A DNA stretch of 64,000 bases from assembly GCF_014696065.1 (NCBI RefSeq), contig NZ_JACJPL010000001.1, positions 248,001-312,000 on the forward strand, given 5' to 3'. Shown here in pieces: positions 1 through 4,252 of the stretch. The notes beneath the pieces are model-generated. The model worked only from the letters and a program-made list of their open reading frames with translations. It did no database searches and was not told the DNA's origin. This DNA comes from Leptolyngbya sp. FACHB-261 (lineage in GTDB: Bacteria; Cyanobacteriota; Cyanobacteriia; FACHB-261). Position 1 is the stretch's first letter. Every line of letters begins with the position of its first letter. Position numbers and translations under genes: made by a program.

Positions 1-171
1 TTTGCGCAGCGCTTCCACAATTTCTACGACATTCTCAGCAGAGGGATCTCGGTCTTCATGAACCCAGCGACCAATGTTCGAGCGGGGAAGGTTCATTGCA
101 ACTGCTAACTTGTTCTGGCTGATGCCATGCGCCTCCAGCACCTGCTTGAGGGACCTGCCTGCTTTTCCCAT
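1..171 (-). CDS. XRE-family helix-turn-helix regulator (3' end outside window)
   Basis: The minus strand reads from an ATG at 171 to the window edge for 57 codons without a stop. The product begins MGKAGRSLKQVLEAHGISQN and continues as a helix-turn-helix of lambda repressor/XRE type: residues 18-38 (ISQNKLAVAM followed by LPRSNIGRWV) fit the two-helix recognition motif with the usual Q and S/N/R contacts. An in-frame stop lies just upstream, so ATG 171 with GGGG before it is the likely start. It diverges from the gene at 296; two matching inverted repeats lie in the shared intergenic region, which suggests autoregulation and control of the neighbour (inference). Whether this is a stand-alone regulator or an antitoxin cannot be told because the rest is cut off. 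Confidence 0.75.
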   Translation of the reverse strand, partial: MGKAGRSLKQVLEAHGISQNKLAVAMNLPRSNIGRWVHEDRDPSAENVVEIVEALRK

Positions 172-806: not shown

Positions 807-1121
807 CTAATCTTCAGCCAAAAGTGGATTTGACTCCAGCCAAGTCACCAAATCCTCAGCAGTTGAAAAGTCCAACAAAGCCTCAGCCAAATCCTCTAAC
901 TGGTCGAAAGACAACTGGCAAATTCGAGCTTGCAACTCATGAGATAGCGACCCCAGGAGACGAGGGAGGAGGCGCAAGATAATGTACGATGCGCCTTCCC
1001 GCTTGCCCTGTTCGAAGGCTTCCTGAAAAGCCTCCTGAAAGCTTTCCTGAAATGCCTCTTGAAAACCTTCCTGAAAGGCCTTCTGTAAGATGTCCTGGAA
1101 AATCACCGACTCTTGCAGCAT
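807..1121 (-). CDS. Free-standing DUF4351-type C-terminal domain (Rpn family fragment or small partner)
   Basis: The 104-residue product matches only the last third of the Rpn-type protein encoded just upstream (1144-2073). Both share xQESVI(F/Y)QDILQK at the beginning and LLDFST followed by EDL near the end. Residues 16-36 are a four-residue repeat (FQE plus A, G or S, about six units) where the long protein has a short GLQQGMQ linker. The catalytic PD-(D/E)XK part is absent. Its ATG is 22 bases beyond the stop of the long gene and in another frame, with AAAGGA touching the start, so translational coupling is possible. It is either the relic of a second Rpn copy or a functional small C-terminal protein; intact reading frame and good conservation favour a maintained product. 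Confidence 0.6.
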   Translation of the reverse strand: MLQESVIFQDILQKAFQEGFQEAFQESFQEAFQEAFEQGKREGASYIILRLLPRLLGSLSHELQARICQLSFDQLEDLAEALLDFSTAEDLVTWLESNPLLAED

Positions 1122-1143
1122 TCCTTTCTGAGCCAGAAAAAAA

Positions 1144-2073
1144 CTAGGATTGCGCTCTCAGCCAGGAACTCAAATCCTCCAACGTAGAGAAATCTAGTAG
1201 CGCCTCACCCAGAGCTTCTAACCGAGCTAGAGAGAGCTGCTGAATTTGCGCTTGTAGATCAGGGGGAAGTGAGCCCAATTGGCGAGCAAGGAGGGACAGG
1301 ATAATCTTCAACTCACCTTTCTGCATACCCTGCTGCAAGCCCTTTTGCAGGATGTCCTGGTAAATCACTGACTCTTGCATAAGCTCCTCTCGAAAAACAG
1401 TACGAATCAGCTCTTTCTCAAAGCGAAGTCCCGCCAAAACCTGCGTGCAAGTCGAGATACTCTTGCGCTCAGCCGGTGCCTCGATCATAGCCACCTGAGC
1501 TGCCACTTGCTCCAGCAGAGCTTCTGGTGAATTAGTTTGCGCCAGCACAGCAAAAGGAAGCAGAGCCGGATCAGCCAGCAAAGGAGCCGGGTCTTGTTCC
1601 CACAGACGAATGACTCGATAGCCATGCCAGGTCTGCTCAACTCGGAACTCCTCCACAAAAACCAGCTCAGAGGTTGTGGGTTTGAGGAAAATCACGACCT
1701 GCTCGATTGAGCAACGATACTGGCGATACAACCTCACCCAGTAATCCAGCATGCGCAAAGGCATGTCGGCGTCAGGGCGAGTTTGGAATTCCAAATGCAG
1801 AAGTTGATTGCTAGTTTGCAGAAAGGTGAGCGCATCAGCTCGGATCGGCTCGTTGCCCAATTCAGTTTTGAGCACCCGAATGTCAGCCGCTTCAGTGGTT
1901 AGAAGCCAGCGGATAAACTGGGCAGGATACTGCTCAGCCAGATACTTACAAAGATTGTCGTAGTACAAAGGCGGCGACAGAAAACAGTTTGAGGCAACAG
2001 TATCCTCAGGCGGTGGGCAAGCTGTCCATCCCAGCAGTTGGGTATCCGCAAACAAAAACACCAGATTGCTCAT
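1144..2073 (-). CDS. Rpn-family (PD-(D/E)XK) nuclease / putative transposase with DUF4351 C-terminus
   Basis: 309 residues. Residues ~38-140 fit the Rpn/YhgA-like nuclease fold common in cyanobacteria: YDNLCKYLAEQYP, then EPIRADALTFLQ (Asp80) and LLHLEFQTRPDADMPLRM, giving the D...ExQ active-site pattern (Glu95, Gln97) followed by YWVRLYRQY. Residues ~232-309 form the DUF4351-like C-terminal domain. The family has metal-dependent DNA endonuclease activity linked to recombination and, in enteric bacteria, to phage defence. The first ~35 residues precede the usual family start, so a start at the TTG of codon 36 is possible. An ATG at 1380 (Met232) lies behind AGAGGAG and could start a separate short C-terminal product. 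Confidence 0.8.
   Translation of the reverse strand: MSNLVFLFADTQLLGWTACPPPEDTVASNCFLSPPLYYDNLCKYLAEQYPAQFIRWLLTTEAADIRVLKTELGNEPIRADALTFLQTSNQLLHLEFQTRPDADMPLRMLDYWVRLYRQYRCSIEQVVIFLKPTTSELVFVEEFRVEQTWHGYRVIRLWEQDPAPLLADPALLPFAVLAQTNSPEALLEQVAAQVAMIEAPAERKSISTCTQVLAGLRFEKELIRTVFREELMQESVIYQDILQKGLQQGMQKGELKIILSLLARQLGSLPPDLQAQIQQLSLARLEALGEALLDFSTLEDLSSWLRAQS
1146..1380 (-). other. Possible internal translation start inside the Rpn-type gene
   Basis: In-frame ATG at 1380 (codon 232 of the long protein) is preceded by GAGAGGAG and three further bases. Translation from it would give a 78-residue protein starting MQESVIYQDILQK, which aligns from its first residue with the separate 104-residue product encoded at 807-1121. 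Enteric Rpn genes are known to make such a C-terminal short product from an internal start. Use of this start here is inference. Confidence 0.4.
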
Positions 2074-2182: not shown

Positions 2183-4252
2183 ATGCCGAATCGCCTCGCC
2201 CAATCCCCTAGCCTTTACCTGCGCAAACACGCCTTCAACCCCATCGACTGGTGGCCCTGGAGTCCTGAAGCTCTAGCTAAAGCGCAAGCTGAAGACCTGC
2301 CTATTTTCCTATCGATTGGCTACTCCAGTTGTCACTGGTGCACAGTCATGGAAGGCGAGGCCTTCTCAGACCGCGAGATCGCCACTTACATGAACAGCTA
2401 TTTTCTGCCGATTAAGGTAGACCGCGAGGAGCGCCCCGACCTCGACAGCATTTATATGCAAGCCCTGCAACTAATGGTGGGGCAGGGCGGCTGGCCGTTG
2501 AATATCTTCCTGACCCCCGGTGATTTGGTGCCCTTCTACGGCGGCACTTACTTTCCAGTTGAAGCCCGTTACGGCAGGCCCGGTTTCCTCAAGGTGCTTC
2601 AGGCCCTACGCGACTACTACGACCACAAAAAAGACGAGATCCAAGAACACAAAGACCAAATTCTCTACTATCTGCACAGCGCCGCTAACCTGCCAGCCGC
2701 CCAAAGCCTGAGCGATGATCTACTGCTCGACGGACTAGCAGCCAGCGCCAAAAGCATAACCCGGTCTGGCCCCGGCCCCAACTTTCCGATGATTCCCCAT
2801 GCAGCCCTGGTGCTTCAGGGTAGCCGCCTGCGACCAGCCGCCGATGACCAGCAACGCGCCATTGACCGAGGTCTGGATTTAGCTTTGGGCGGCATTTATG
2901 ACCACGTGGGTGGCGGCTTCCATCGCTACACCGTAGACAACACCTGGACCGTGCCGCATTTCGAGAAAATGCTCTACGACAACGGCCAGATTGTGGAATA
3001 TCTAGCGAATTTGTGGGCGTTGGGGGTCGAAGAATTAGCGTTTAAGACGGCAATCGAGGGCACTGCCCGTTGGCTGCGGCGAGAAATGACCGCGCCGGAA
3101 GGTTACTTTTACGCTGCTCAAGATGCCGATAGTTTCCAATCGCCCCAGGCAGCGGAGCCGGAAGAGGGAGACTTTTATGTCTGGAGCTACGGTGAGTTGG
3201 CAGAGTTACTGACGCACGAAGAGCTAAGCGCGCTCCAGGAAGCATTCACGGTGACGCCTAATGGCAACTTCGAGGGCAAAACTGTCCTCCAGCGCCAAAC
3301 CTCTAATCCTTTATCTGAGCCAACCGATGCAGCGCTAAGCAAGCTATTCCAGAGGCGTTATGGCGAGCATGCAAACCCGGAAAGCCCATTTCCACCGGCT
3401 CGCAATAATGACGAAGCCAAGGGCAAACCCTGGCCAGGGCGAATCCCACCGGTGACCGACACCAAGATGATCGTGGCCTGGAATAGCCTGATGATTTCAG
3501 GGTTGGCCCGTGCCTATCAAGTCTTGGCAGAGCCAGTTTATTGGCAAATGGCTAGCCGCGCCGCTGATTTCATTCTCGACAAGCAATGGCTAGCAGGCCG
3601 TTTTTATCGCGTGAATTACGAAGGCACAGCGGCGGTCCCGGCTCAGTCAGAAGATTATGCACTGTTCATCAAAGCCCTACTGGATTTGCACCAAGCGGCC
3701 ATTTTGCAGGACAAAGCACAGTCGAAAGGCCAAACCGATTGGTTAGACCAGGCAATTCGGGTGCAGAAAGAGTTTGATGACTTCCTCTGGGATGCAGCGG
3801 GTGGTGGCTACTTCAACACATCGGCCAATGCCAGCAGTGATTTGCTGATTCGGGAGCGATCCTATACAGACAACGCCACGCCGTCAGCCAATGGTATTGC
3901 CGTCAACAACTTGGTGCGTTTGGCACTGGTGAGCGAAGACTTGAACTATTTGGAGCGGGCAGAACAAACCCTCAAAGCCTTTGGGGAAGTGATGGCCAAA
4001 AGCCCATTGGCCTGTCCGGTTCTGTTCATGGGCTTGGATGCGTTGCACAACCACACCCTCGTACGCACCAGTACCGCTCAGCTTCCGCCGCTGCTCAGCA
4101 AGTTTTATCCCGTAACGGTATACAAAGCAGAGTCTATGCCCAGTCCAGAGGTTGTCGGTTTAGTTTGTCAGGGCTTAGCCTGTCGAGAACCCGCCCGGTC
4201 CCCAGAGCAATTAGTCCAGCAGATTAGCGACAGTCAGGTGCGCCAGAGTTAA
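2183..4252 (+). CDS. Thioredoxin-domain protein of the DUF255/YyaL (SPATA20-like) family
   Basis: 689 residues, the usual length for this family. The N-terminal thioredoxin-like domain has the family signature [11 protein letters not shown] with a C-x-x-C pair (Cys50, Cys53), followed by [13 protein letters not shown] and [23 protein letters not shown]-type segments. The remaining ~500 residues resemble a six-hairpin (alpha/alpha)6 glycosidase-like barrel, with motifs such as [30 protein letters not shown] and [12 protein letters not shown]. No signal peptide, so cytosolic. The family is widespread but its biochemical role is not established. The gene starts at an ATG 109 bases after the divergent Rpn gene start and is followed closely by the phosphatase-like gene at 4284. 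Confidence 0.9.
   Translation: [689 protein letters not shown]

Follow-up and report, generated by a model that had tools for sequence, protein, structure and literature searches.

A candidate gene-within-gene toxin-antitoxin unit in a cyanobacterium, followed by an out-of-register copy of its C-terminal domain

Does a short gene that lies directly downstream of an Rpn-type nuclease gene, and repeats only its C-terminal domain, restrain the nuclease beside it? In E. coli, RpnS antitoxins made from within the toxin gene have been described, and so have separate copies downstream of it (Zhong et al. 2023, PMC10327210). We examined such a pair in a 64,000-nucleotide stretch of the Leptolyngbya sp. 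FACHB-261 genome (the window). A sequence-only reading of the window had described two open reading frames on the minus strand, an Rpn-type gene and a 104-residue neighbor, and we found both as described (Table 1). It had also proposed that the same antitoxin idea exists twice at this locus, once inside the long gene and once as a separate gene. Comparative sequence data support the intragenic start well, but a mismatch of five repeats makes it doubtful that the separate gene plays this part for the nuclease next to it. Taken as a whole, an intragenic toxin-antitoxin unit accompanied by an out-of-register stand-alone RpnS-like protein is the explanation that we favor, with moderate confidence.

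Table 1 Features of the Rpn-type locus, in window coordinates
Feature	Position	Strand	Basis or remark
Full-length Rpn-type gene (RpnL-like)	1144-2073	minus	309 codons/309 aa counted from ATG 2073
Predicted PD-(D/E)XK nuclease core, residues 37-165	1579-1965	minus	fold matches and alignment
Internal Shine-Dalgarno GAGAGGAG	1384-1391	minus	sequence; conserved beyond amino acids
Predicted intragenic RpnS-like protein, 78 aa	1144-1380	minus	internal in-frame ATG 1380-1378
Helix-1 four-residue repeats, long protein (GLQQ GMQK GELK), spacer 14	1306-1341	minus	alignment
DUF4351 (PF14261) domain of long protein	1159-1335	minus	profile match
AGAAAGGA directly before stand-alone ATG	1122-1129	minus	weak Shine-Dalgarno, abuts start
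Stand-alone RpnS-like gene, 104 aa	807-1121	minus	ORF, PF14261; purifying selection
Expanded helix-1 repeats, stand-alone protein (AFQE GFQE AFQE SFQE AFQE AFEQ GKRE), spacer 34	996-1079	minus	
DUF4351 domain of stand-alone protein	837-1013	minus	profile match

The structural model of the long protein (pLDDT 70.8, moderate confidence) placed a PD-(D/E)XK nuclease fold at residues 37-165. In a fold search with this model EndoMS was at the top (Z 8.0), and below it came many other nucleases that share the fold, among them restriction and defence enzymes. We observed a D...ExQ motif in the long protein (D80, codon 1834-1836; E95, 1789-1791; Q97, 1783-1785), of which D80 and E95 were invariant across the aligned relatives. 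The Rpn profile TIGR01784 aligned to residues 39-264 with a score just below its cut-off of 52.1 (48.5 bits, E 1e-12), and the two proteins of the pair matched PF14261 at 77 and 75.5 bits (cut-off 25). A PDB sequence search with the long protein gave no match, and PADLOC gave no relevant match to either gene of the pair. Translation of the long protein probably begins at a TTG (position 1968) and not at the ATG at 2073: most relatives have nothing that corresponds to the first 35 residues, which were modeled at pLDDT <40. We therefore take the long protein to be a probable DNA endonuclease of the PD-(D/E)XK type. By analogy with E. coli Rpn proteins, the nuclease would be toxic and would be neutralized by its short product; the defence module proposed by the sequence-only reading, and a role against phage, may likewise hold, by analogy with E. 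coli RpnP2 only.

The in-frame ATG reported inside the long gene is present 3 nt after GAGAGGAG, which is predicted to form a duplex of -7.9 kcal/mol with the anti-Shine-Dalgarno sequence. To assess its conservation, we collected 126 distinct full-length genes, almost all cyanobacterial, 99 of which carry an ES(V/I) motif beside the internal start. The equivalent codon was ATG in 98 of these 99 relatives. Synonymous codons just upstream were strongly biased in the motif-bearing relatives: glutamate at position -3 was encoded by GAG in 78 of 81 cases (27 expected from codon use of the same genes), and arginine at this position by AGA or AGG in 12 of 12 (1.9 expected). The mean energy of pairing with the 16S tail was -9.2 kcal/mol; synonymous shuffles averaged -5.3, and the remaining in-frame ATGs -0.7. 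To control for common descent, we repeated the test in 46 representatives that were <65% identical, where the energy was -8.6 against -5.06 for shuffles (sd 0.30); other in-frame ATGs in these representatives paired no better than their own shuffles. Full-length genes lacking the motif usually had a strong Shine-Dalgarno and a start codon at the same place. RNA folding in this region was not unusual (z -0.97).

The stand-alone gene lies on the same strand as the long gene, 22 nt away. As the sequence-only reading had stated, its product contains only the C-terminal domain: it aligned to that part of the long protein alone, with 62% identity to its neighbor in the core. The further statement that it begins at the equivalent residue was nearly right, in that the stand-alone ATG lies near the canonical Met but one codon upstream of it, and the canonical Met is now a Leu (CTG). 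The AAAGGA that precedes this ATG touches it, with a pairing energy of -1.5 kcal/mol at normal spacing and -5.0 when adjacent bases are counted. Between the stand-alone gene and its neighbor, dN was 0.28 and dS 2.29 (saturated; dN/dS ~0.12). The low dN beside a saturated dS suggests purifying selection on the stand-alone frame, and synonymous differences between its repeat units, which keep FQE, point in the same direction. In our overall reading, which also draws on the repeats, the stand-alone gene probably encodes a functional RpnS-like protein whose target is not the neighboring nuclease.

The two proteins differ most clearly in the repeats of helix 1. In E. coli, helix 1 of RpnS carries four-residue repeats, and RpnC-S blocks RpnC-L only at equal repeat number, one extra repeat abolishing neutralization (Zhong et al. 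2023, PMC10327210, Fig. 4D); this mismatch rule rests on one protein, RpnC, and one added repeat. We measured the spacer between the internal Met and the start of the DUF4351 core. Its length was quantized in four-residue steps (6, 10, 14 ... 70), a 2 modulo 4 series that 103 of the 104 full-length genes follow. The stand-alone protein of the window has a spacer of 34 against 14 in its neighbor, that is, five extra four-residue repeats derived from an AFQE-type expansion. Spacers also differed in all seven cyanobacterial pairs scored, always by multiples of four (+20, -4, +4, +4, -12, -8 and +4). We left out of scoring one adjacent pair with equal spacers (L180 in genome G210), both copies of which are truncated remnants. 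In genomes G135 and G177 the long genes both had a spacer of 26 and the short genes spacers of 14 and 18, which indicates that the short gene varies its number of repeats independently.

The same mismatch was observed in E. coli. RpnE and YpaA of K-12 differ by one repeat, and 18 further strains with both genes were mismatched in every pair, giving 11 of 11 distinct rpnE/ypaA combinations in all. Zhong et al. 2023 (PMC10327210) make no mention of this mismatch in their main text. Matched registers were not significantly avoided: there were 0 of 7 matches in cyanobacteria, where 1.3 would be expected (P = 0.20), and 0 of 11 in E. coli, where 0.9 would be (P = 0.33). Active avoidance cannot be claimed from these counts, which fit free drift and speak against a maintained cis-antitoxin. 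Should the need for equal repeats hold generally, stand-alone copies would leave their neighbors unsilenced; by analogy with RpnC, the stand-alone protein of the window probably does not restrain the adjacent nuclease.

A search of genomes for a full-length gene followed by a C-terminal copy, as the sequence-only reading had suggested, showed that this layout recurs in several cyanobacterial genera, although it is uncommon. Downstream short genes were found in G115 (two loci), G135, G177, G221 and G198, each starting at or near the canonical Met; those of G197 and G212 belong to another subfamily. In G221, one locus (L173, 1421-2928, plus strand) holds a full-length Rpn gene followed by two stand-alone copies, with spacers of 14, 10 and 18. 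The nearest relative of the short gene was the neighboring long gene in 6 of 10 cases tested, which suggests that many short genes arose locally. Among 88 full-length genes sampled regardless of layout, only the window and one other had it. A search of the genus, family and order of the window returned only the genome of the window, and thus no close orthologues to compare.

Three rival explanations were weighed. The internal ATG and its Shine-Dalgarno might be by-products of a conserved protein motif, REE-x-M-x-ES, and never be translated. The residues around the start are indeed conserved in protein, and the shuffled codons still reach a fair duplex (-5.3 kcal/mol). A codon scan of all columns ranked positions -3 and -4 first and second of 1244 tests (second and fourth in the 46 representatives only), but shared ancestry lifts other columns to z ~8.5 and inherited codon bias is common, a point that also favors the by-product explanation. 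We therefore gave more weight to the shuffle test in the representatives, where synonymous codon choice strengthens the Shine-Dalgarno. Relatives with different residues upstream of the start (REG, RRD, SED, RWD) retain a similar purine-rich DNA motif, one relative has a GTG in place of the internal ATG, and the full-length genes of Roseofilum at L022 and L025 have lost both the internal Met and the Shine-Dalgarno. These data make the by-product explanation very improbable, and comparison across relatives points to an internal start that is, very likely, both genuine and conserved.

The stand-alone gene could alternatively act on its neighbor as an additional antitoxin and so raise the antitoxin dose, if its longer helix is no bar to pairing. 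The spacers of 34 and 14, the loss of RpnC neutralization upon addition of one repeat (PMC10327210) and the independent shift of repeat number in G135 and G177 all argue against this, whereas the adjacency of the two genes on one strand, with no terminator-like site found in the region between them, speaks for it. E. coli YpaA, which is made as a protein (PMC10327210) though it is one repeat off its neighbor, also counts in its favor. On balance we regard a second antitoxin as rather unlikely. A non-functional remnant of a tandem duplication would account for the weak Shine-Dalgarno and the displaced start, and broken copies do exist in the same genome: of two further Rpn/DUF4351 copies, the one on contig C18 (L008) is split in two frames and the one on contig C27 (L006/L012) has internal stops. 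The frame of the stand-alone gene is intact, however, with the low dN and FQE-preserving synonymous changes described above. Short genes of other genera start at or near the same Met and retain a Shine-Dalgarno, and the orthologous short genes of G135 and G177 differ by a dN of 0.030 and a dS of 0.153. A remnant is thus an unlikely explanation.

Of the explanation that we favor, an intragenic unit with an out-of-register stand-alone protein, the sequence data directly show the anatomy of the locus, an internal start that is conserved and under selection, the four-residue quantization, the recurrence of the layout and the register mismatch. The locus would then be an Rpn-type gene-within-gene toxin-antitoxin unit, in which the long protein is a DNA endonuclease and the C-terminal dimerization domain is also made alone from the ATG at 1380. 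This internal product, with an identical repeat register, would pair with the long protein and render it inactive. The stand-alone gene would have arisen by duplication of the C-terminal coding stretch, its helix-1 repeats having since moved five units away. Because pairing depends on equal repeat number, the stand-alone protein is most likely not silencing its neighbor. Its target would more likely be another Rpn protein of matching register, in a role of immunity or anti-addiction, or the gene may serve as a store of alternative registers. The lack of action in cis and these alternative roles are what we infer ourselves. We sought a partner of register 34 among the DUF4351 copies in the genome of the window and found none; an intact copy on contig C22 belongs to another subfamily.

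The mismatch in both cyanobacteria and E. coli raises the question of what stand-alone RpnS proteins neutralize. We tentatively suggest, as a generalization that we hold possible and short of probable, that stand-alone RpnS genes generally do not share the register of the adjacent nuclease. They would not be cis antitoxins; they would provide register-specific immunity to Rpn toxins other than the neighbor, or a reserve of alternative registers for transfer by recombination into the nuclease gene, its internal antitoxin included.

Other genes were observed around the pair. A third DUF4351 copy (L002; G000:C1:232433-232705, minus strand) lies outside the window, 16 kb from the pair. Most of the nuclease domain is missing from it, but the internal start is still there, with ATG and Shine-Dalgarno (GTGAGGACACTATG). 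It has a spacer of 26 and is 64% identical in the core to the stand-alone protein; from these sequence features it may be another stand-alone antitoxin-like gene. Near the pair, an HNH endonuclease gene resembling restriction enzymes (L223:810-1781, plus strand; PADLOC HNH, PF13391) and a small HTH_3 regulator (L223:1921-2172, minus strand) lie just before window position 1 and run into window positions 1-171. Together with the pair, these two genes could possibly form a small defence cluster. The divergent neighbor on the other side (window 2183-4252, plus strand) encodes a thioredoxin-domain protein (PF03190) with no apparent relation to the Rpn genes.

DUF4351 (PF14261) is common to the two proteins of the pair. 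TIGR01784, the profile to which the long protein aligns just below the cut-off, bears the title "Rpn family recombination-promoting nuclease/putative transposase" and corresponds to COG5464. RpnA-S (PDB 7TH0) is a dimer of three-helix bundles with a long first helix. The model of the stand-alone protein is helical with a long first helix, but its fold search gave no significant match and did not list 7TH0, and a PDB sequence search with the C-terminal alignment gave only weak, apparently unrelated rows. Like the long protein of the window, E. coli RpnA-E and RpnP2 (PMC10327210) combine a PD-(D/E)XK domain, four-residue helix-1 repeats and an internal start with a Shine-Dalgarno for the C-terminal domain; for the window, this start is predicted from sequence and conservation alone. 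RpnE differs in that its nuclease domain is PF04754 and its C-terminal domain has no PF14261 match, so the mechanism is transferred by analogy of layout and repeats. The cyanobacterial C-terminal domain, DUF4351, is longer than its E. coli counterpart. The E. coli rpnE-ypaA pair resembles the window pair: downstream of the long gene, and on its strand, lies a separate copy of the C-terminal part with an unequal repeat number. Apart from the repeats, rpnE and ypaA hardly differ in the shared part, and a full Shine-Dalgarno is retained where the two genes meet, whereas the window pair has 62% core identity, a weak start and a gap of five repeats. The arrangement of an internal antitoxin start and a separate downstream copy is thus already known from E. 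coli. The comparative evidence presented here is new, and it argues strongly for a conserved internal start, which would extend the gene-within-gene Rpn antitoxin to cyanobacteria.
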